From positions 124,001 through 188,000 of the forward strand of contig JAJECO010000053.1 of assembly GCA_022822005.1 (NCBI GenBank): DNA of 64,000 nt, given 5' to 3'. Of the stretch, positions 13,817 through 24,325 are shown piece by piece. The stretch comes from Candidatus Poribacteria bacterium. Lineage in GTDB: Bacteria; Poribacteria; WGA-4E; PCPOR2b. Position numbers and translations under genes: made by a program. Each line of letters starts with the position of its first letter. The first letter of the stretch is position 1. Under the pieces are notes generated by a model that was not told the DNA's origin, made no database searches, and was given only the letters and a program-made list of their open reading frames with translations.

Positions 13817-14521
13817 ATGCCCACTTCCATTGATGTCGTTTTCACACCAGATCTCCTCCCTTTTTCTGACCTTACCGGCAAAACAGTTGTCGTCACCGAT
13901 ATTTTACGTGCGACAACTACCATCACCCTCGCTGTGGCAAACGGCGCAACAGCCATCACACCTGTCCTGACTCCAGAGGATGCGTTTCGTCTTGCTGCGG
14001 ATCAACCGAACACACTGATCGGCGGCGAACGGGGCGGGGTAAAAGTTGATGGGTTCGATCTTGGGAATTCACCGCGTGAATATACCCAAGCGGTTGTCTC
14101 AGACCGACAGATCGTTTTGACAACGACGAACGGAACACGCACCCTACAAGCCTGTCGTGCCGCGGAGCGGATTCTTGTCGGATCTTTCCTCAATCTCCGC
14201 GCAACTGTGGACCAGTTGGCACAGGTAGAAGGGGAACTTGTCATCGCTTGCTCTGGCAGGGAGGGTGGTTTCTGCACGGAAGACACTGTTTTTGCGGGTG
14301 CATGTGTGGCAGCATTGGAAGAGACTCAACTGACCGATGCCGCCGAAACAGCAAAGCTCCTCTATCAGACACATCGTGATGATCTGCTTGGAATGCTGAA
14401 AAATTGCTATCACGGTAGATCTCTTGCCCGCATTGGACTGGGGGAAGATCTCGAATTCTGCGCCCAAGTGGATCTCGTTGACGTTGCCCCCCATCTAATT
14501 GACGGACGGATTACTGCCTAA
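13817..14521 (+). CDS. comB: 2-phosphosulfolactate phosphatase family protein
   Basis: A 234-residue ComB-family protein. In methanogens the enzyme makes sulfolactate for coenzyme M; in bacteria its role is often unclear and may involve sulfolactate or sulfonate metabolism. Recognisable segments are VVTDILRATTTI, GGERGG followed by VDGFDLGNSPREY, TTNGTRTL and CSGREGGFCTED. Length matches the family. It follows accC by 67 nt on the same strand and may share its transcript. No other coenzyme M gene is nearby. Confidence 0.88.
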   Translation: MPTSIDVVFTPDLLPFSDLTGKTVVVTDILRATTTITLAVANGATAITPVLTPEDAFRLAADQPNTLIGGERGGVKVDGFDLGNSPREYTQAVVSDRQIVLTTTNGTRTLQACRAAERILVGSFLNLRATVDQLAQVEGELVIACSGREGGFCTEDTVFAGACVAALEETQLTDAAETAKLLYQTHRDDLLGMLKNCYHGRSLARIGLGEDLEFCAQVDLVDVAPHLIDGRITA

Positions 14522-14881: not shown

Positions 14882-15697
14882 CTAGCGTTCCACTTTTGAT
14901 GGTGCTAAGAAAGATGCATCTTCTTTCATGTACTGACTGACCGCACCAAGCCATTCACCTCTTCCCCGAGTTGATTGGAATGCGATCTGCTTCCCATCAG
15001 GCACCCAAGCGGGGTACATATTGTCTTTGTGATCTATTGTGAATGGCTCCACCTGTCCTGTCTCCAAGGAAACAATGTAAATATCGCTATGTTTTCCTTC
15101 CCACGATACATAAGCGAGGGACCTCCCATCGGGAGACCAACTGAGCCCGCTCGGCAACAAAAGGAGTTCACCACCTTTGGAAACATCAAGATCTGCCGGA
15201 GCAAGAAAGCGCATATGATCTCCGGCAGCGGAGATCATATATACTCCATCTGGTTTCTCCAGCTTTATTGGTGACTGAGGCCGCCAGAAATCGCTTAGTT
15301 TCCTCTTGGCATACCTTGCAGGCAAATCCTCTCTACAATAAAATGCAATCCAGTTTCCGTCGGGAGACCAAGTTGGCTGGTAGTATCGCGCCCACAACCG
15401 GCTCGGTTCTTCGATTAATACTTGCGGTTCGCTTGGCGCGGAAAAGTCGTCCGCTGTAATGGATCTAACCACCAGTCGATGGACTTGACGAATTGGCTGC
15501 TCTGTTGAGAGCGATTGCTCTTCATAAACCAATTTTGTTCCATCAGGTGAGATATCAATATTCCACTCATTCAGCATGTCTTTTGGAATACTAAGTGGTG
15601 TCAAGGTTGCATTGTTGTTGACTGCATGAGCACTGAAATTGGAAAGGAATGGAAGAAATATCGCGGCTAGAAGGATTTTATGCGCTATAAATTTCAT
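14882..15697 (-). CDS. Secreted PD40/TolB-like beta-propeller protein
   Basis: A 271-residue protein with an N-terminal signal peptide (hydrophobic ILLAAIFLPFLSNFSAHA). It then has repeated WD40-like PD40 units, each with an SPDG turn: NIDISPDGTKLVYEE, PTWSPDGNWIAFY, LSWSPDGRSLAYVSW and PAWVPDGKQIAFQSTRG. Four or so blades are visible, fewer than a full six-bladed TolB propeller. GGAGAG lies upstream of the ATG. It is the last gene of the minus-strand array of exported proteins. Partner and ligand unknown. Confidence 0.8.
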   Translation of the reverse strand: MKFIAHKILLAAIFLPFLSNFSAHAVNNNATLTPLSIPKDMLNEWNIDISPDGTKLVYEEQSLSTEQPIRQVHRLVVRSITADDFSAPSEPQVLIEEPSRLWARYYQPTWSPDGNWIAFYCREDLPARYAKRKLSDFWRPQSPIKLEKPDGVYMISAAGDHMRFLAPADLDVSKGGELLLLPSGLSWSPDGRSLAYVSWEGKHSDIYIVSLETGQVEPFTIDHKDNMYPAWVPDGKQIAFQSTRGRGEWLGAVSQYMKEDASFLAPSKVER

Positions 15698-15880
15698 GAC
15701 AGCTCTCCAATTGCGTTAGGGATTGAGCACGTGCTAACCACTCTGTGGATAATCATCTTTTCCTCTAATTCGATAAATCCAGACGCGATCAATTCCATTT
15801 AAGCGGATCGCATGTTCTAAGTTCCCGTCATACTCGGATCAAAACGGATGATAATCGCTTGACCCACTTTCTGAAGTGGG

Positions 15881-16825
15881 TCACTTCACCCACTTTGAAT
15901 CATAAAGATTTAAGAATTCCTTTTTGGACAAGCGTTTTCTTAAATCACCTACCCAAATTTGGGAGTTCTCTGGAATATCAACGGTGAATGTTTCTTTGGG
16001 AATGTTGTGATTTACCCTAAAATATTTCATCTCGATTTGTGTCATCAAGAGAAGTTGCTTCTGTCCTTCTTGATTAATCGCAAATGTTTGAAAGAAAATT
16101 TGTTTGGGGAACCATACCTCCCCGTATTTTTGGTAAGAGGCTTCCTTGCGTTCGAGCATGGGGGTTCCCGCCTTCAGACCTCGATGCGGAAGATTTATTT
16201 TTAGTGCAAATCTATGCTCATATTGCAAAAGACGAAATCCTTGTTCGGGCGCAATCCACATTTTCTCTCCTTCTGTATTCTCAAGAACATAACAAGTGCC
16301 TTGTTTCAACTTTTGCTTTTGCTTAATCTTGAAGTTTTTTTTCTTTAAATGTCCATAGACACTACCTGCTTCCCATTGCGTCATTATCAATTTGGGATGC
16401 CAATCAGTAAAGGTATTCGCAGAACCAGTATAGTAGGCGGGTCGAGGAATACCTTGCTTGGTGTCAGGTAAATGCCACTCTCCCTCGCCTCTAGTATCAA
16501 TGAAAGTAAGTTTAGGGTGATGAGTATTACCTGAGAAGCGTTCAGGAATATCCATCCGGGTTTGACGTTGAGTAAAGATCAGGTAATACTCGCAGGTTAT
16601 GCGATGGCCAGCATCAGTAAGCCCTGGAGTTTGAACACGTTTGTAGACGACTTCTCCTTCGCCAGATTTGATGAGGGAATCATAATACTGTATCCCACTT
16701 AAAATCACTTTCAAATCCATGTCTACGTCTAATGAAAAGGTAACGGAGGGGAAACCTAACATAAAGGCAATAATAAGAAAACACAAAACTAATAAAAGAG
16801 TGTTTTTTCTACCAAAGAAGATCAT
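15881..16825 (-). CDS. Exported LolA-like fold protein (first of two in the array)
   Basis: A 314-residue protein with a hydrophobic N-terminal segment (about residues 10-32) that looks like a signal peptide. It is followed by a half-barrel pattern of the outer-membrane lipoprotein-sorting type: a helix with ILSGIQYYDSLIKSGEGEVVYKR, then alternating strands, and a C-terminal phrase IPKETFTVDIPENSQIW. The same order (helix ending in a SGE phrase, strands, F-x-VD-P-E-N/F ending) is seen in the protein at 19586-20638, so the two are probably distant paralogues. Transport of lipoproteins is not implied. AGAGGAAAA precedes the ATG. Confidence 0.6.
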   Translation of the reverse strand: MIFFGRKNTLLLVLCFLIIAFMLGFPSVTFSLDVDMDLKVILSGIQYYDSLIKSGEGEVVYKRVQTPGLTDAGHRITCEYYLIFTQRQTRMDIPERFSGNTHHPKLTFIDTRGEGEWHLPDTKQGIPRPAYYTGSANTFTDWHPKLIMTQWEAGSVYGHLKKKNFKIKQKQKLKQGTCYVLENTEGEKMWIAPEQGFRLLQYEHRFALKINLPHRGLKAGTPMLERKEASYQKYGEVWFPKQIFFQTFAINQEGQKQLLLMTQIEMKYFRVNHNIPKETFTVDIPENSQIWVGDLRKRLSKKEFLNLYDSKWVK

Positions 16826-16875
16826 ATTGTTTTCCTCTTTGAAAGCACATTATTAGAACCTACTTGTAAGAGAGT

Positions 16876-17580
16876 TTATCGAGTTGTTCCACCGTAGGTC
16901 ACGCCCATGGGCAAGGGTTCCATCAGTTCAGAAAGCCATCCTCCCTCGCGCAGCGGATTCTCCCGACCCGTTACGTTCAAATATGATGTATAACGCGGAA
17001 TTTTTTGACGCGCTGTTTCCTGGAAGAGTCGCTTCACCTCTGCCCATGTCTCGTCACGCCACTCAGCAATTCCCGGTGAACTTCCTGCCATCCCATCTGT
17101 ACTTATCAGATCTTTATAGAGCGTCACCGCCCGTGTCAGATTGGTGCGAATTTCTTCCTCAAGCACAGGTATCTCAGCTTCAATCTCAGAACGAGTCAAC
17201 CCTAAAAAAAGCTCTTCTTGAGACTCTGAAACCGCTTCGGACTCGGATAGCTCCCCAGTTGCCCCGTCTGCCGGAGCTGTCTGCCCTTCTGCCATCTCTG
17301 CGTTCTTAAACAAAGTTGCATCCGCGTCAGAAAACATCTCCGCTTGCCAATCATCAGGCTCTTCATTCTGGTGAGAAGGAGTGCTAGCAGATCGACTCAG
17401 AAGCCGCTGTGCCCCCGTTGAAGCGTCTGAGTCGAGGGGGAGCGTGGGCAGGCTTTCATTGAAAAACCGCTCATTAAAAAATATCAACGAAAAAATGGAA
17501 ATCAAAATTAACCCAATCCCAATAGCAAACATTGAGGTTGTTACCAACTTAAACCCGCTAAAACCCTTTTGCAGTTTCAT
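16876..17580 (-). CDS. Single-pass membrane-anchored protein of unknown function
   Basis: 234 residues: a short basic N-terminus, one transmembrane helix (about 12-36), a low-complexity acidic linker rich in Ser, Glu and Ala (about 45-125), then a helical region and a more conserved-looking C-terminus with LREGGWLSELMEPLPM. I do not recognise the family. The layout (anchor, acidic linker, compact tail) is shared with the proteins at 18014-18745 and 20697-21374 in this array. A strong AGGAGGGG lies upstream of the ATG. Confidence 0.65.
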   Translation of the reverse strand: MKLQKGFSGFKLVTTSMFAIGIGLILISIFSLIFFNERFFNESLPTLPLDSDASTGAQRLLSRSASTPSHQNEEPDDWQAEMFSDADATLFKNAEMAEGQTAPADGATGELSESEAVSESQEELFLGLTRSEIEAEIPVLEEEIRTNLTRAVTLYKDLISTDGMAGSSPGIAEWRDETWAEVKRLFQETARQKIPRYTSYLNVTGRENPLREGGWLSELMEPLPMGVTYGGTTR

Positions 17581-17628
17581 TATCCCCTCCTATATCATTC
17601 CAATGTTGAATCTTCGGCAGATAAACCT

Positions 17629-17770
17629 CGTAATCGAATTTCGGACTATTCTGCGTTGTGTGGCACGTCAAGCAATCCGCTTGGGTAACTTCTATGAACG
17701 ATCTGCTAAAACCGCTGAAGCTATGATATACATTGCTTCCATTTACTTGATGCGAAACCGTATCAAATGA
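17629..17770 (+). mobile_element. Possible C-terminal remnant of an IS5-like transposase
   Basis: The plus-strand frame ending in TGA at 17770 reads NFYERSAKTAEAMIYIASIYLM near its end. This matches the C-terminal tail of IS5-type DDE transposases (YER..ET/AEAMIYIA..LML). Nothing upstream in this frame looks like the rest of a transposase, and no terminal repeats are seen. It lies in the gap between two minus-strand genes of the exported-protein array. Recognition is by motif memory only. Confidence 0.4.
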
Positions 17771-17773
17771 CTT

Positions 17774-17929
17774 TTAAAACAGGCTCTTAGTGATTGATCC
17801 TGATCCACCGATACATTCGTCCCATATGGTTTCGCTATACTTGGGATCATTTTCTGCGACTAGAGGCAAAGCAACGATAAGAAACGCTGCGATAAAAGTG
17901 AGTGTGAGGATGAAACTTCTGGCTTTCAT
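17774..17929 (-). CDS. Small exported peptide with a Gly-Gly motif
   Basis: 51 residues from an ATG at 17929 with GGAGG 7 nt upstream, a better start than any further upstream. A hydrophobic signal segment (about 4-24, ending ALPLVAEN) is followed by a short polar tail containing DECIGGSGSITKS. The mature part would be only about 26 residues with one Cys and a double glycine. No family recognised. It sits in the exported-protein array, between two membrane-anchored proteins and about 1.5 kb downstream of a C39-peptidase-like fragment. Confidence 0.6.
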   Translation of the reverse strand: MKARSFILTLTFIAAFLIVALPLVAENDPKYSETIWDECIGGSGSITKSLF

Positions 17930-18013
17930 CCTAGAACCTCCTATTCCGCTTTGAGATCTCGTCATTCCTTTAAGTGACGCTGGAGCCTTGCAGCACGATC
18001 TCATGACACAGGC

Positions 18014-18745
18014 TCAAGGTAAGTCGAGAAATGAATACGGGTCAATTCCTGCACCTTCTAAAGGGACAACTTTTACCCAACTCGGTTGTGTTCCATTCTC
18101 TACTGATTCCTCGTATTGTCCTAGATCGCCATGGCAAGAAAACTTACTTAGGTATCTGTTACCTTCGTCGTCGGTTTGCCATTCGACGTAGACGGTATCA
18201 TCGTAGTGTGGAATGACACCATCCTGCTCGTTGTAGGTGGCAGCGGTTACTTTAGTCCCTTGATTCCAGAGTTTGATTAGCACTCGCTCGATAAGTTCAT
18301 GTCCAATACTTTCGTATCCGTCATAGTAGAGTTTTTCGATGTTGTCCCATACGTCCTGCTCTGGATAATCATGTGGAATCTCAGGATATGGGCCTAAACC
18401 GTATAGGGATTCACGAGGCGGAGTAACTTCTGAGGTTAAGGTCTGCTTTTCCGCCTCTGTCAACTCCGCGAGGAGATCCTCAATGGATAGTTCCCATGAC
18501 GGTGTGATCTCTGATTCTAACTGAGTTTGTTTGGTTTCAATGGGTTCCGGGAGTTCGCTGAAATCAAGTGCTGGTGGCGTGTAGTGTTGACTTGGTGTGT
18601 ATGCTAAGGGTTCAGGTGTCTCAACGACAACGGTTTCACCGTAGTAATAGTGACTGCCGAGGTATGCACCCACAACGATGAGCACGCCGATTACGATTGA
18701 TCCAATAAGCATGGGTTCACGTATAAGGTCAAATAGCGTTTTCAT
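18014..18745 (-). CDS. Single-pass membrane-anchored protein of unknown function
   Basis: 243 residues: one transmembrane helix (about 13-33), a Pro/Glu/Thr-rich linker to about residue 110, then a globular C-terminal domain of some 125 residues with DVWDNIEKLYYDGYESIG and DTVYVEWQTDDEGNRYLSKF. No family recognised. AGGAGA lies upstream of the ATG. It follows the short metallophosphatase-like gene by about 50 nt on the same strand. Confidence 0.65.
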   Translation of the reverse strand: MKTLFDLIREPMLIGSIVIGVLIVVGAYLGSHYYYGETVVVETPEPLAYTPSQHYTPPALDFSELPEPIETKQTQLESEITPSWELSIEDLLAELTEAEKQTLTSEVTPPRESLYGLGPYPEIPHDYPEQDVWDNIEKLYYDGYESIGHELIERVLIKLWNQGTKVTAATYNEQDGVIPHYDDTVYVEWQTDDEGNRYLSKFSCHGDLGQYEESVENGTQPSWVKVVPLEGAGIDPYSFLDLP

Positions 18746-18794
18746 GACGAGTCTCCTGTAGGTTGTGGAGACACCCGAAGGAGTCCTCGGTTAG

Positions 18795-19361
18795 TCAGAG
18801 TCGCCGAAGGCAGATGCTAACCCTTGATTGGGAGAGCACTCCTATAATCGCTATCTGTATCTGGCTGCCGTGGAGATTGACTGTGTGAAGCACAAAGGGT
18901 TGAAAGACTCGGCTTTCTCCGTGAAACAGATTTGCAGATAGAAACGGAATCCCCGACGCCTCTTGTAAATACTTCAATCGATCTATACCCAGCAGCAAAT
19001 CTCGGTCTCCAATGTTATAGACGGTGTAACCCATCTCTTTTAGGGCGGCAAACCCAATCTCTGCCCTCAATTCCGATTGGCGGGTTGCGTCCTCAATCAG
19101 ATCGCCGTTGGCAACCGGTACGAGTGTGTTGCCTTTGGCCCCAAGCTGTTGAATTACGCTGTCCCGTCTGGGAAACCCACCGAGCTGCCCTTCTGCACAA
19201 CCACATGGTTCAAGATAGCCCAACTCCTCCCCACTGATCAGCAGCGTCAAGTTAGGTCCACATTCAACTCTGGTTGGACGCATGGATTGGGAACTAAACC
19301 CCAACCTTAGTACCAAACCGATTAGGGCTAAAATCAGAAAAGGGGAAATTATCTTTGCCAA
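18795..19361 (-). CDS. Short membrane-anchored metallophosphatase / 5'-nucleotidase-like protein, C-terminally truncated
   Basis: 188 residues from a TTG at 19361, preferred over the TTG at 19385 because GAGGAG sits 9 nt before it. After an N-terminal transmembrane helix comes GYLEPCGCAEGQLGGFPRRD (about residues 48-67), a hallmark of a UshA/5'-nucleotidase-like calcineurin-fold group, then VANGDLIED and a TVYNIGDRDLLLG segment. The protein stops shortly after QIQIAIIGVLS, so the second half of the phosphoesterase domain, with its histidine metal ligands, is absent. The last residues (SRVSICLRRL) look out of frame. Probably non-functional or a novel short form. Confidence 0.6.
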   Translation of the reverse strand: MAKIISPFLILALIGLVLRLGFSSQSMRPTRVECGPNLTLLISGEELGYLEPCGCAEGQLGGFPRRDSVIQQLGAKGNTLVPVANGDLIEDATRQSELRAEIGFAALKEMGYTVYNIGDRDLLLGIDRLKYLQEASGIPFLSANLFHGESRVFQPFVLHTVNLHGSQIQIAIIGVLSQSRVSICLRRL

Positions 19362-19392
19362 TGAGAATATCTCCTCTGTGGACAATGATTAC

Positions 19393-19590
19393 TCAATGAA
19401 TAGCAATTGAACTTACATAAACACCTAGGCAAGTTGTACCATGATCGGGGTGGAAACGGGACAGTTGAGCCAGTTCGTCAAAGTTTGTATTAATTTTTAA
19501 CAACTCACAGATCCGTAGCAAACTGTTGGGGCCGCAAGTTAGCAGAAGAATATCAGCCTCGGGTGGAGTGCTGTTCTTTGGTGGCTCACC
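19393..19590 (-). pseudogene. Fragment of a C39-like cysteine peptidase
   Basis: A 65-codon open frame between two genes of the array, with no ATG, GTG or TTG before the key residues. It reads ILLLTCGPNSLLRICELL, then FDELAQL and HGTTCLGVY. This is the N-terminal pattern of C39/papain-like peptidases: catalytic Cys in CGPxxL, a helix, an LDELAxL helix and a GTTxLG turn. The His-containing second half is missing. I read it as a decayed or internally deleted gene. Programmed frameshifting from the upstream gene, whose stop lies in AAGGTGAG, is a weaker alternative. Confidence 0.5.
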
Positions 19591-20638
19591 TTATTTCGAT
19601 GTGACCAAATTCAGGGGAGATAATTTCAGAAAGAGGTGAGATCCTTAAGTGCGGATGATTAAAATAAAACTGCCGATCAATCTGAAAAAAATTCTCAGGG
19701 AAGTCAACATTAAACGCTCCCTCTTTTACGAGCACTGTGGTGGTTCTCATAGGACTACCATCCGGTTTGTTATGGGTCTTGCGAATGACCATCGGAAACC
19801 AGATATCGTCTAACTTCTGAAAATGTTCATACCTGTTCTCCCACTCTACAACCGATTCTTTATCCTGTAGGAATTCCTCTTTACGGATACAGAAGTTCTT
19901 CTCCGCATCAATCCAGATTCTCATAAAGTCAAAAATCCCCATATCGATGTTTGTTTCCGACCCTTGAAATTCAAGAATGTAGCAATCGGCTCCCGCAACT
20001 CTCTCTTTCCCGACCAACCGTGCATTCGCAGGTACACGACGGGCAGGTGCTCCATAAGCATCAAAACGCAGAAAGCCCGCATTTTTACGGACATTGAAAA
20101 GCTCAAAAGAGAAATGCGGTGCCAATGCTTCAATTCTTTCAAGGGCCTCGGTCTGACCATCATAAGTGAGAATTTCAAGAAAACCCGCCCAGAAATATTC
20201 TGCCCTTTCACTGTATAAATCACTCTCTGTCAAATCCACCCGGGTCATCTTATATTGGTAAACTTTTGGTGAGGAAGCGACAACTTGGTCGAAGATTTGA
20301 AAGGCAAAATTTGACTCTTTAGTTTCTTTATATCCGCTGTATAGTTCCGCCGCAAACGGGATGGTCCTGAGCTGACGCTCCAATTCAGCTTTACCATCGC
20401 GTGCAAAATCCTTCAAAGTCTGCTCTCTTTCTTCTCGCATCCATGCCTGAATTTCTTCTGGCGACTTTTCAGCGGCGTAGTCAACTGTCACGATAGCCCT
20501 GACTTCCCCACTTCTGATACGATTGCGAGTCAGATTTACGCCATGAATCAACTCATCAAGCGTTAGGTCTTTAGAGAAACATAATGCACTCATGAAAAAG
20601 ATGGAGTAACATAGGATGTAGAAAAATAGTCGGGACAT
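19586..20638 (-). CDS. Exported LolA-like fold protein (second of two)
   Basis: About 350 residues from the ATG at 20638, which has GGAGAG upstream; the longer frame adds 35 residues that overlap the neighbouring gene and precede the signal peptide. Signal peptide: FFYILCYSIFFMSALCFS. The mature part opens with LTLDELIHGVNLTRNRIRSGEVRAIV and ends with an FNVDFPENFFQIDR phrase, an arrangement like the protein at 15881-16825. Between them lie ADCYILEFQG and IWFPMVIRKTHNKPDG strands typical of LolA/LppX-like half barrels. Ligand unknown. Confidence 0.65.
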   Translation of the reverse strand: MSRLFFYILCYSIFFMSALCFSKDLTLDELIHGVNLTRNRIRSGEVRAIVTVDYAAEKSPEEIQAWMREEREQTLKDFARDGKAELERQLRTIPFAAELYSGYKETKESNFAFQIFDQVVASSPKVYQYKMTRVDLTESDLYSERAEYFWAGFLEILTYDGQTEALERIEALAPHFSFELFNVRKNAGFLRFDAYGAPARRVPANARLVGKERVAGADCYILEFQGSETNIDMGIFDFMRIWIDAEKNFCIRKEEFLQDKESVVEWENRYEHFQKLDDIWFPMVIRKTHNKPDGSPMRTTTVLVKEGAFNVDFPENFFQIDRQFYFNHPHLRISPLSEIISPEFGHIEIR

Positions 20639-20696
20639 AAAATCTCTCCTGAAAATGTATTTCCTAAGGTATTTCCAAGTCCTGAAGTGTCTTAGC

Positions 20697-21374
20697 TTAC
20701 AAACCTGCTTTCCAAGATTGATACGCTGCCTCGTGTTTGTCATGAAATTCTGTCATAGAAATTCCATACTTGTCCGCTAACTTCTCATACGCGTTATCAA
20801 TTTCACGTTGCTTCTCGTGAAATTCATTGAGTATAGGGACCAGCTCATTCTGTTGTTCGGTAAGTGACTTAAAGTCTTCATCCAGTTGCTGAGCAATTTG
20901 CTTGCCCTCTGTTGTGCCCATCGCTTCAGTAATTTCAAAAATGGCACGCCTCAGCTCAACAAAATCCTTAAAAAAGGGTTCCTCTTCTTGATTCAGTTTT
21001 TGCCGTCGATCGTCCAACTGTTTGACATCTATGAAAAGAGCTTCCAGTTCTGGACTACTTTGTTCTTCAGAAGGATTCGCTTCCAATTCCTCAAAACCCT
21101 CTGTATTGAAAGTAACTCCGGTCTCTTCCAATGCCGTATTTTCGGAAGTCTTCTCAGACACTTCCCACTCTTCCTCAGTCGATTCTGGGGTTGAGTGTTT
21201 CGGGGCTGAAGACTGAAAAAGACTGTTGGCCCCCCGAGCACCAATTAAAGGTGCTTCCGGTTCCACTTCTTGTAGATTTTTGTCTGCGATATGCAGTTGA
21301 TAACTGGTATAGATGTAATACACAATTGAACTCAACAGCACGAGGCATGAAAAAGCCAAGAATTTCCGTTCCAT
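20697..21374 (-). CDS. Membrane-anchored coiled-coil protein of unknown function
   Basis: 225 residues: transmembrane helix at the start (about 5-24), an acidic Ser/Glu-rich linker (about 50-105), then charged heptad-like helices (LDDRRQKLNQEEEPFFKDF, IAQQLDEDFKSLTEQQNEL, FHEKQREIDNAYEKLADKY) that probably form a coiled coil. No enzyme motif. AGGAGGAGA precedes the ATG. It lies 34 nt after the SUMF1-fold gene and precedes the LolA-like gene, all in one direction. Confidence 0.65.
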   Translation of the reverse strand: MERKFLAFSCLVLLSSIVYYIYTSYQLHIADKNLQEVEPEAPLIGARGANSLFQSSAPKHSTPESTEEEWEVSEKTSENTALEETGVTFNTEGFEELEANPSEEQSSPELEALFIDVKQLDDRRQKLNQEEEPFFKDFVELRRAIFEITEAMGTTEGKQIAQQLDEDFKSLTEQQNELVPILNEFHEKQREIDNAYEKLADKYGISMTEFHDKHEAAYQSWKAGL

Positions 21375-21407
21375 ATTCTCCTCCTTATGAAAGTGTTGCG
21401 AGCCCCT

Positions 21408-22235
21408 TTACTTATCAGTTACGTCCTGAGCACAACGAAATCCGACATTATAGGCTCTGCGATCTGCCTTATCGCAATGCCGATAAAAGGTTCGGAGTTG
21501 AAGCCGAATTGAATTCCATCCCCCGCCACGCAAAGCCCGATATTCTCCCCCATCTGGTCCTTTTGGGTTTTGCCGTGAACTTTGTGGATAGCAATCTTCA
21601 CTATACCAATCCGCACACCATTCCCATACGCTGCCCGCCATATCGAGCGCGCCATAAGGGCTCGCTCCGCTTGGAAAACTGCCAATTCCCAAAATCTTTT
21701 CGTGATGTGGAAAATAGTTGAGGCGAGAAAAATCCATCTTATTTCCCCACGGATAGGTACGTTCATCTGTTCCCCTTGCAGCTTTCTCCCACTCCGCTTC
21801 GGTCGGGAGTCTTTTTCCCGCCCAAGTCGCGTAAGCATAGGCTTCATACCAACTCACGCCAATCACCGGATGGTCTGGTTCCATTGACACTGAATTCTGA
21901 CCATGATGTAGTGGAGTTTTTATCTGATGGTTCTGGATAAAATTCCAACCCGCCGCTGTCCAAAGTTTCCGGTTTTGGTATCCACCGTCAACGATAAATG
22001 CCTCAAATTGGGCGTTGGTGACTTCGTGTTTATCAATATAGAAGACATCTAAATAGACCTGATGCGCGGGTTTCTGATCCGCGTTTGTCCCCTCAGAATC
22101 TGTTCCCATGATGAACTCACCCGCAGGAATTAAAACCATATCTTCGGGAGCCTCTGAAGCAATTGAAAAATGTTCACACACTGCAAGCACCGTCAGCATC
22201 AAACCAACGGTCAAACACCTTGCACATTTTCTCAT
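21408..22235 (-). CDS. Exported SUMF1/formylglycine-generating-enzyme-fold protein without the copper-binding cysteines
   Basis: 275 residues from the ATG at 22235 (AGGAGG upstream) with a signal peptide (CLTVGLMLTVLAVCEHFSIAS). The FGE-sulfatase fold is clear: MVLIPAGEFIMGTD, VTNAQFEAF, HPVIGVSWYEAYAYATWAGK, RLPTEAEWEKAARG, YPWGN, MAGSVWEWCADWY, LRGGGWNS and NVGFRC. True formylglycine-generating enzymes carry a Cys-x4-Cys pair just after the RGGSW-like motif; here that stretch reads WNSIRLQLR and has neither. It is therefore unlikely to activate the Cys-type sulfatases in this window and may instead be a binding or structural member. Confidence 0.82.
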   Translation of the reverse strand: MRKCARCLTVGLMLTVLAVCEHFSIASEAPEDMVLIPAGEFIMGTDSEGTNADQKPAHQVYLDVFYIDKHEVTNAQFEAFIVDGGYQNRKLWTAAGWNFIQNHQIKTPLHHGQNSVSMEPDHPVIGVSWYEAYAYATWAGKRLPTEAEWEKAARGTDERTYPWGNKMDFSRLNYFPHHEKILGIGSFPSGASPYGALDMAGSVWEWCADWYSEDCYPQSSRQNPKGPDGGEYRALRGGGWNSIRLQLRTFYRHCDKADRRAYNVGFRCAQDVTDK

Positions 22236-22281
22236 CACTGATATTCCTCCTTTTAAGTAATGCTGAATAACAACCAAATCC

Positions 22282-22850
22282 CTAGGCAAGCAACAAAACT
22301 CCCGTTCCCAACTTCATGGGCATCAGATGCCGTTGCAGCACACCACCGAGCTGCCCCGAGGTCGTTCCCCAATACACAAACCCAAACACCACCAGCAGCG
22401 GTACGATAAACATCAGATTATACAGAATCAGGTACGCCAGCGCATGACCCCGCATCCCCCCAACACCCATTACAAAGGTAATCGTCGGCAAATAGACCTG
22501 CCCCGTGCAAACCAACTCCAACACAGAGATTGCGAACCCTATGACCAACGCACCGATAATTACCCCCGATGTCCGCGTCTGCTCGCGGATCGCTTTGTGG
22601 ATACGCTGCTTCAACGACTTGGGCAGCTGCAATGTAATCTCTTTTACCTTCCCCTGCTTTGCTTTATAAACGTCGTACAGACTCAAAAACGCCAGTGCAA
22701 ACGTCCCAATCGCAGCAAGCAGATAAACACACTTGGCAAGGACCGAAAATTCGTTGAGAAAGGAGAGAACTTGAGCAGTCCCGTCCCCAAGAGCAGGTAC
22801 GTCACAAACACGGCTGCGGCGAATGCACCTTCTGTACTAGCAATTACCGC
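22282..22850 (-). pseudogene. CcdA/DsbD-like thiol-disulfide transporter remnant
   Basis: Two frames together read as a CcdA/DsbD-type membrane protein. The upstream frame gives AFAAAVFVTYLLLGTGLLK. The downstream frame continues with VLSFLNEFSVLAKCVYLL, then SLYDVYKAKQGKVKEITLQL and the Cys-bearing helix LELVCTGQVYLPTI. They are joined by a missing base at about 22770-22772 (AAGTT where AAGGTT would restore the frame). A second disruption near 22830 (about five extra bases) and loss of the N-terminal helix with its Cys mean the gene is dead. It lies at the upstream end of the exported-protein array. Confidence 0.65.
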
Positions 22851-22860
22851 GCCAAAATAA

Positions 22861-23596
22861 ACAACAGCGTCCCAAAACCGGTATAAAGTTTTTAACGGAG
22901 AGCGCTTAAAAAGCAACCGCAGCGATTAGAACAGTTATATCGGACGATAAATTTGCTATATTACAAGCTGAAGGGTGTAACTCCTACTGTTTATTGTTGA
23001 TTTGAGTGGACTTTCATCACATTTTTATCACTTCTCATGTTCTGGTCCTGTAACTTCGCCATTTTTGGCGACGCGAATTTCGCATCATGGAGGCAAATTG
23101 CCCCTAAAGCCTTGTGGCCACTGGGTTTGACAGCTTCGCCATTTTTGGCGACGCAAATTCTCATTATCGCGGTCAATTCTCCCCTAAAGCCTTGTGGCCA
23201 TTGAGTTTGACAGCTTCGCCATTTTTGGCGACGCAAATTCTTGATGATGTGCTGTCATTGTCGCTGAGTTGGTGGATTGTTGTACGAACGGTTTACATGG
23301 CATCGCTTTCGCCAAGTAGCATAGAATACCTCCTATGAAGATGAAGTCATGCCAAGCAATTTCTCGTTTCGGGCTCATCAAGACTCAAAGATAGATAGGT
23401 AGGATTATACAATCAATGGTGCTAGTTTAATGCGAGGGCATGAATCGGTTTTCGTAATTCTATCGTTAATCGGCGTAACAAACCATATTCGATTAACCAA
23501 TGTAGATTTTTTCACACAATCGTTCTGTTGGATAGATGATAAAGTTAGGGGAAAAATAGACAAGATATCAGCTTATTTCCGGGAGGGTATGCAGGG
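22861..23596. other. Gene-free region holding the 80-bp tandem repeat
   Basis: No supported gene apart from the repeat at 23054-23240 and a 9-codon minus-strand frame (23293-23322, MLLGESDAM) with a perfect AGGAGG before it. The frames crossing the repeat are not coding: the 80-base period is not a multiple of three. Confidence 0.5.
23054..23240. repeat. 80-bp tandem direct repeat, about 2.3 copies
   Basis: The motif CTTCGCCATTTTTGGCGA starts at 23054, 23134 and 23214, an exact 80-base period. Each unit also carries CCCCTAAAGCCTTGTGGCCA near its end. CGCCA/TGGCG within the motif can form a 5-bp hairpin with a T-rich loop. The array lies in the gap between the CcdA remnant and the SGNH hydrolase. 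Confidence 0.9.
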
Positions 23597-24325
23597 ATGA
23601 AAAAGGATTGGTGGGCAAAAGAGTTTCAGAAGCTAGTTACCATTGGAGAGAGTACAACCGCTGGTGGTTGGTCTAGCATTCGCGAGCGGTGTTGGGCAAA
23701 TCAGTTGGCGCAACTCATCAACGAGTTTCAGCGTGTCCCTGTGGAGTTGGTCAATGTGGGTATCGGTGCGAACCTGATCTCGACCAAAGGTCCCGCCTAT
23801 CTCGAATCCGATCGAAATCCTCCCGCCAACGAGCGCATCGACAGACACGTTATCAAGAACAACCCAGATTTATTGGTCATTTCGTATGGACTCAACGATG
23901 CACGCGGCGGCACACCCATTGACCTCTTTTGCACCGAGATGCGCGACATCATCCAGCGTGTACGGGAGCAAATTCAGCCGTTAATCGTCTTACCTGGTCC
24001 GTATTACATGACCGACTTTACTGCTGGCGGTGAACGCTGGAGTCACGCAGATCTCGATCTCTTCTATCGTTACAACGATGCGATCAAAGGGGTTGCCGAT
24101 GCGTGCGACTGTCTTTTCGTTGACCTGCTGGGGTCATACCGCGATGCGGACTGGCTCGTCCACCATGACGGCGTACATGCCAACGATCTCGGACACCGCA
24201 TTGTGGCAAACAAGATCTTTGAGGTGTTAGCCTCCAACTGCTCCGGGTTGGCTCTGGAAACGAAAACGTTAGAAGCGCACATCCCGCCGTGGCGCGACGA
24301 ATCCGTGCTCCGAGGCGTGAAATAA
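23597..24325 (+). CDS. SGNH/GDSL-family hydrolase
   Basis: A 242-residue esterase-like enzyme. Block I is TIGESTTAGG (catalytic Ser in GES rather than GDS), block II is NVGIGAN with the oxyanion Gly, block III is SYGLNDA with the Asn, and block V is HHDGVHANDLGH with the catalytic Asp/His pair. No signal peptide. Families of this kind remove acetyl groups or other esters from carbohydrates or lipids; the substrate is not evident. GGGAGGG lies upstream. It converges with the GH-like gene at 24376. Confidence 0.85.
   Translation: MKKDWWAKEFQKLVTIGESTTAGGWSSIRERCWANQLAQLINEFQRVPVELVNVGIGANLISTKGPAYLESDRNPPANERIDRHVIKNNPDLLVISYGLNDARGGTPIDLFCTEMRDIIQRVREQIQPLIVLPGPYYMTDFTAGGERWSHADLDLFYRYNDAIKGVADACDCLFVDLLGSYRDADWLVHHDGVHANDLGHRIVANKIFEVLASNCSGLALETKTLEAHIPPWRDESVLRGVK

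Follow-up and report, generated by a model that had tools for sequence, protein, structure and literature searches.

Gene content of the comB-SGNH interval

The window (the whole 64,000-nucleotide stretch analysed) belongs to a 6.0 Mb Candidatus Poribacteria genome (G000; other G-numbers designate the genomes of relatives, and L-numbers designate loci). Eleven to twelve minus-strand units were located, by ORF calling and from the raw sequence, in the approximately 9 kb between comB and a gene for an SGNH hydrolase. The preliminary description of this array of mostly exported proteins was essentially right in its list of units and in attributing strong Shine-Dalgarno sequences to them: good ones were seen in the raw sequence upstream of nearly all intact genes. 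The features were as follows (types I and II are operon arrangements, described below):

13817..14521, plus strand: comB, left border, 2-phosphosulfolactate phosphatase-like by sequence
14882..15697, minus strand: exported PD40 propeller protein (Pfam supports PD40)
15881..16825, minus strand: LolA-like protein 2, type I, intact, 95% identical to G002
16876..17580, minus strand: anch3, anchored protein, type I, intact, 90% identical to anch3 of the intact G003 operon
17558..17691, minus strand: UshA-like/cytochrome c554 C-terminal remnant with a CLTCH haem motif (CxxCH)
17692..17789, no strand given: end of an IS5-like element (transposase C-terminus plus terminal sequence), 86-90% identical at 4 other places in the genome
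17774..17929, minus strand: 51-aa ORF, the former "Gly-Gly peptide", what is left, at the N-terminal end, of an exported protein encoded by the anch2 cassette
18014..18745, minus strand: anch2, anchored protein of an inserted cassette, one of a family whose members number up to 19 per genome
18795..19385, minus strand: UshA-like metallophosphatase/cytochrome c554 N-terminal remnant (homology at 18826-19373)
19408..19584, minus strand: C39 peptidase stub, CGPNSLLRICELLKINTNFDELAQLSRFHPDHGTT, 59 codons, frameshifted, in a different frame directly behind lolA1
19586..20638, minus strand: LolA-like protein 1, type II (PF17131, 1.3e-8)
20697..21374, minus strand: anch1, anchored protein, type II; the order SUMF1-anch1-LolA1 also occurs in L043 and L044
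21408..22235, minus strand: SUMF1/FGE-fold exported protein, type II (PF03781, 6e-66), with the same neighbours in relatives
22267..22829, minus strand: C-terminal end, frameshifted, of a fusion of UshA-like, glutaredoxin and CcdA parts; 86% identity with the G006 fusion over its residues 497-668
23257..23322, minus strand: sigma-54 activator remnant with an internal stop; 77% identity with the G002 gene over residues 1-22
23597..24325, plus strand: SGNH hydrolase, right border; same borders in G001-G004, directly beside comB in G005

The array had been taken for one system; it is instead a compound ruin, made up of the remains of two related operon types, an unrelated cassette (anch2 and its partner) and a PD40 gene. 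The identities proposed for the SUMF1-fold, both LolA-like and the PD40 proteins were upheld, but the CcdA, C39 and metallophosphatase pieces turned out to be stubs of larger genes. PD40 was rejected as a member of the C39 operon, as it lies outside that operon in relatives.

Remains of type I and the inserted cassette

LolA-like protein 2 had no Pfam match, and LolA/LolB structures were the top class of PDB matches to its AlphaFold model (pLDDT 76.8). The segment at 17558-17691 aligned with nt 1367-1500 of the UshA-like/cytochrome c554 gene of G002 at 95% nucleotide identity, and this alignment ruled out the reading of CLTCH as mere transposase sequence. The other remnant of this gene matched the G002 protein over residues 1-183, with 90% identity: what had been called a short metallophosphatase-like protein is a UshA-like metallophosphatase remnant, comprising only the N-terminal ~183 residues of a protein of ~460-500 aa. 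The intervening nt 642-1366 (G002 numbering) were replaced in the window by an insert of approximately 1.1 kb carrying anch2, the 51-aa ORF and the 98-bp IS5-like end. The sigma-54 activator remnant, missing from the earlier unit list, corresponds to the gene which heads the operon in G002.

Residues 48-51 and the stop codon of the 51-aa ORF were supplied by the IS5-like terminal sequence, and the “Gly-Gly peptide” is therefore a truncated gene. Of 40 relatives, 33 had members of the anch2 family, with a maximum of 19 per genome, and many copies were followed by a short exported protein, mostly of about 105-180 aa; most likely, the stub is a former partner of this kind. Neither anch2, whose loci in relatives contained no C39, DUF1573, UshA-like or SUMF1 genes, nor the 51-aa ORF, which ends in IS sequence and sits in the anch2 cassette, was retained as part of the C39 system, and the suggestion that the 51-residue peptide is the conserved peptide of that system was abandoned.

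Remains of type II

The “CcdA/DsbD remnant” does contain decayed CcdA sequence, but a separate gene was ruled out: it is the C-terminal end of the UshA-like/glutaredoxin/CcdA fusion. Human FGE has an active-site Cys pair; by eye, this pair appears to be absent from the C-terminal region of the SUMF1-fold protein. LolA-like protein 1 is severed by a frameshift from its C39-DUF1573 part, LolA1-C39-DUF1573 being one ORF in relatives. The “C39-peptidase fragment” is a genuine C39 remnant, located at 19408-19584, derived from this ORF and 47-50% identical to the C39 of G061 and G012. The window contained this stub but no intact C39 gene, and no match to C39-DUF1573 was found anywhere in the G000 assembly; the C39 system is thus dead in this strain. 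A second, partly decayed cluster was present on contig 7 of the same genome.

The same site in congeners

The single-copy comB gene (89-91% identity in 5 congeners) allowed the same interval to be compared. It was empty in G005 (55 bp) and G004 (about 460 bp); it carried a sigma-54 activator, two anch2 and one PD40 in G001; and it was partly eroded in G002 (activator, UshA-like-c554, anch3, LolA2, a C39 stub, a transposase and further genes). A complete operon was found in G003: activator, UshA-like-c554 (interrupted by the contig end only), anch3, a Cys-rich exported protein, LolA2 and C39-DUF1573. The C39 peptidase-DUF1573 protein of G003 bears a signal, and its UshA-like metallophosphatase is fused to a tetraheme cytochrome c554.

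The preliminary description had interpreted the array as what remains of an envelope system that exported and processed peptides and had a redox component, eroding here and perhaps intact in relatives. Relatives held conserved arrays, not unordered singletons; these included intact ones, one of them at the same site (G003), and intact C39, UshA-like-cytochrome, UshA-like-CcdA, LolA-like, anchored and SUMF1 genes were all recovered. That reading was right in outline and wrong on the peptide.

Operon arrangements across Poribacteria

Four arrangements of the operon were distinguished across Poribacteria:

Type I: UshA-like-c554, anchor, Cys-rich peptide, LolA2, C39-DUF1573, STT3 (G003, where the next gene is comB instead of STT3, G039, PCPOR1 and PNGco_C_bin3; partial in G043)
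Type II: UshA-like-glutaredoxin-CcdA, SUMF1, anchor, peptide, LolA1-C39-DUF1573, STT3 (complete in G061; variants in G006, G012 and G019)
Type III: as type II, without C39
Type IV: UshA-like-c554, GspC-like protein, C39-DUF1573, peptide, LolA2 (C39 Cys lost in 1 of 3 members)

Of 35 C39 loci, 33 had a LolA-like gene no more than 5 kb from C39; a few of these loci had been retrieved through LolA or UshA-like matches (21 of 22 agreed among those retrieved through C39-DUF1573 alone). Control loci (309 kb) gave 1 LolA match. UshA-like and DUF1573 genes were adjacent in 69 of 80 loci, a pairing which reaches Scalindua and other Planctomycetota and therefore probably predates the addition of C39.

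Peptidase and redox families

In relatives, Pfam domains were recognised for C39 (2.5e-20), DUF1573 (2.7e-27), cytochrome c554 and glutaredoxin. The C39 proteins had an N-terminal hydrophobic segment (signal peptides were judged from hydrophobicity only) and no ABC/TM domain, and were fused to DUF1573 or LolA domains. The catalytic Cys (CG.xxL) and the downstream His-Phe and Asp were kept in G003, G006, G012, G061 and others; the Cys was lost in G029 C81 and in a TGA-bearing C39 group, and one large C39 group without it was also without the peptide. The AlphaFold model of C39 matched the ComA peptidase domain (5xe9; TM 0.86, 1.5 A) and also PCAT1.

The UshA-like part of G002 scored 300.1 bits against NCBIfam NF041198, passing the cut-off of 275; the CcdA-type fusion (80.5 bits) was under this cut-off. 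Against OS_HP2 (NF041425), the DUF1573 of G061 scored 75, under the cut-off of 100. The literature searched yielded no description of a C39, LolA or peptide context for the UshA-like and OS_HP2 families, and no papers on Poribacteria with C39 peptidase or DUF1573, on DUF1573 with peptidase C39, on NVEALA or on FilB.

A double-glycine leader in Cys-rich exported proteins

The peptides linked to C39 mostly had lengths of 118-182 aa and contained 8-15 Cys; one of them, L046, is a 68-aa piece left by a frameshift. Neither Pfam nor NCBIfam gave a reliable family for these peptides. Most had a layout of a Sec-type signal, a canonical double-glycine leader (LSxxEMxxLxGG) that agreed with the classical one at each position, and a variable Cys-rich core; the hydrophobic signal segment upstream of the leader was seen in all peptides listed (from hydropathy only). 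Examples of the leader behind the hydrophobic N-terminus are LNDAEMSQLVGG (G019), LSMEDMGSLAGG (G012), ISDAEMAQHVGG (G061) and LSDSQMEQLSGT (G003). Signal plus leader were 54-66% identical among the three closest peptides, versus 34-42% for the core.

The strict leader (LxxxE[LM]xxLxG[GAST] after the signal) was present in 9 of 11 peptides with a linked C39, and in 12 of 13 by relaxed criteria set by eye, versus 0 of 11 where C39 was missing or lacked its catalytic Cys (Fisher 2e-4 and 1e-5, values which overstate significance, the loci being related by descent). Since related loci are not independent, these counts indicate rather than prove the association. The strict motif arose in 0.15% of shuffles, and among 342 signal-like ORFs it matched only these peptides and one homologous SUMF1 N-terminus. 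The exceptions were two C39-linked peptides missing the strict motif (L048, L053), some C39 loci with no recognisable peptide (L059, L161) and G019 (L052), where the C39 linked to the peptide is truncated. One more leader, LDEETMQNLVGG, came from a blind scan of C39 loci; it lies next to C39 in G051, a relative at class level. On this sequence evidence, the C39 substrate is likely to be the Cys-rich protein, which is absent from the window.

Proposed function and alternative explanations

We consider it quite probable that what remains in the interval is the wreckage of a single Poribacterial operon, present in two of its types, which serves the maturation of Sec-exported, Cys-rich small proteins in the periplasm. 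Gene content, order, decay, leader motif and predicted C39 fold are sequence-based; from them we infer the localisation, cleavage, redox action, escort and glycosylation outlined here. The sigma-54 activator would turn the operon on, and Sec would export the small Cys-rich protein by means of its N-terminal signal/anchor. The signal-bearing C39-DUF1573 would cleave it after the double-glycine leader just outside the membrane. Its cysteines would be handled by CxC/haem/CcdA redox proteins (UshA-like-c554 or UshA-like-glutaredoxin-CcdA, and DUF1573), the LolA-fold carrier and the membrane-anchored protein would escort the product through the periplasm, and the neighbouring STT3/PMT-like enzyme may glycosylate it.

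An unlikely alternative is a Fap/Fil-like surface fibre, in which C39 would license secretion of the structural subunit and the Cys-rich proteins would be fibre or matrix components, not free peptides. FapD, a C39 peptidase needed for Fap amyloid secretion in Pseudomonas, is proven to be periplasmic and active, with a substrate and recognition site reported as unknown (PMC5557850); NCBIfam includes a pilus-system C39 peptidase, FilB, to which the match here was weak (0.075), and GspC-like and anchored proteins accompany the operon. However, ORF listings of the intact loci, inspected by eye, included no FapF-like trimeric barrel or amyloid repeat protein, and the cores differ from Fap repeats in being variable and rich in Cys.

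The leader itself fits the classical double-glycine consensus, and L052 weakly matched the rSAM-RiPP leader model TIGR04149 (E 0.52), as would suit a classical bacteriocin/RiPP system with its ABC exporter (PCAT) encoded elsewhere and its leader cut in the cytoplasm. We regard this as very improbable: a strong hydrophobic N-terminus precedes the leader, and the C39 protein has an N-terminal signal of its own and DUF1573 or LolA domains, but no ABC/TM domains. That unrelated exported genes merely piled up in a hot spot and share no function is scarcely credible. The interval is indeed variable (empty, anch2/PD40 only, or operon), and anch2 and PD40 are unrelated additions; however, other genomes repeat the same gene set, identically ordered, at many unlinked sites, and LolA-C39-DUF1573 and UshA-like-CcdA occur as fusions. 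For the core genes this explanation is contradicted by gene order; anch2, the 51-aa stub and PD40 are the only parts to which it still applies.

Periplasmic maturation of a Cys-rich protein is retained as the preferred reading. A C39 that carries a signal of its own, lacks an ABC part and has a ComA-like predicted fold implies that leader and enzyme would meet in the periplasm, and the best reading of the sequences is that double-glycine leader processing may have moved there. We lean slightly towards a new peptide-maturation route, in which a periplasmic double-glycine leader behind a Sec signal would be removed by a secreted C39-DUF1573(-LolA) and this step coupled to a thiol/haem redox relay. 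If true, this would be a periplasmic counterpart of PCAT systems across Poribacteria, with a varying redox module. A signal-bearing C39 gene adjoins the gene for an exported protein with a textbook double-glycine leader, and the leader is gone where the protease is gone; such a defined candidate enzyme-substrate pair bears on what periplasmic C39 peptidases cut. Two selenoprotein-type families, UshA-like and OS_HP2/DUF1573, would also be linked to the maturation of Cys-rich secreted proteins.

Comparison with known systems

C39 cleavage in PCAT transporters takes place in the cytoplasm, after a double-glycine leader. The systems described here have in common with PCAT1/ComA the C39 domain (TM 0.86 to the ComA PEP domain) and a leader of the LSxxELxxIxGG type; unlike in PCAT1/ComA, C39 comes without an ABC transporter, the leader follows a Sec-type signal, and cleavage would be extracytoplasmic.

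In other bacteria, the UshA-like and DUF1573 families include variants with selenocysteine in their CxC motif, as CxU and UxC (PMC2398784, PMC13188914). The UshA-like part here has the same CxC motif as the UshA-like (seleno)protein NF041198 and passes its NCBIfam cut-off, and the DUF1573 part resembles the OS_HP2/DUF1573 (seleno)protein NF041425. The fold of LolA/LolB carriers is shared by LolA-like protein 2 (top PDB matches), and LolA-like protein 1 has a Pfam match; unlike those carriers, the LolA-like proteins here are longer, and fused to C39 or nearly always beside it.

The closest proven precedent is FapD (PMC5557850): it is a stand-alone C39 fold with a Sec signal that acts in the periplasm on small exported proteins, as the signal-bearing C39 protein described here, free of ABC and TM domains, would do. 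Fap proteins are without the canonical C39 site, whereas the linked exported protein here has a canonical double-glycine leader. LolA, DUF1573 and redox partners accompany C39 here; the available part of the Fap report mentions none of them.

In-frame TGA in C39-DUF1573 homologues

Homologues of C39-DUF1573, the signal-bearing C39 peptidase fused to DUF1573 in intact operons of relatives, contained one in-frame TGA in 14 Poribacteria genomes (L061-L066 and L175-L182). It fell at an identical position in the first DUF1573 domain, inside its CxC region (..GNT-TGA-HTV..). Coding-type conservation persisted downstream of this codon, and the Cys on both sides of it were missing in the TGA-bearing homologues. 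A tRNA-Sec scoring above the cut-off was present in 29 of the 30 genomes tested; no convincing SECIS was found. Judged from sequence, this TGA is a candidate selenocysteine codon.

Related clusters and modules

Contig 7 of the window's genome, L043 87-7218: second cluster
Window 18014-18745: anch2, an anchored protein

The second cluster comprised an UshA-like fragment, SUMF1, two anchors, LolA1, a VWA-like protein and an LVIVD-like propeller. DNA identity to the window cluster was 73% over the 5' part of this second cluster, whose UshA-like-CcdA gene was broken too.

The anch2 family (also at L019-L038; up to 19 copies per genome) combines an anchor, a Pro-rich linker and an unknown C-terminal domain, and is a separate, unnamed exported module. 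Its genes often precede one for a short, variable exported protein and, in some loci, one for a GspC-like protein.

Adjoining the sigma-54 activator remnant (window 23257-23322, minus strand), GCGTCGCCAAAAATGGCGAAG, a potential hairpin by its sequence, occurred three times with similar flanks (23080-23240); a single additional near match was found elsewhere in the genome.

In nearly all of the loci L084-L154, covering Planctomycetota, Scalindua, TA06 and Omnitrophica, the UshA-like-cytochrome protein immediately adjoined a DUF1573 protein; the two form a two-gene unit, both families being of known selenoprotein type.
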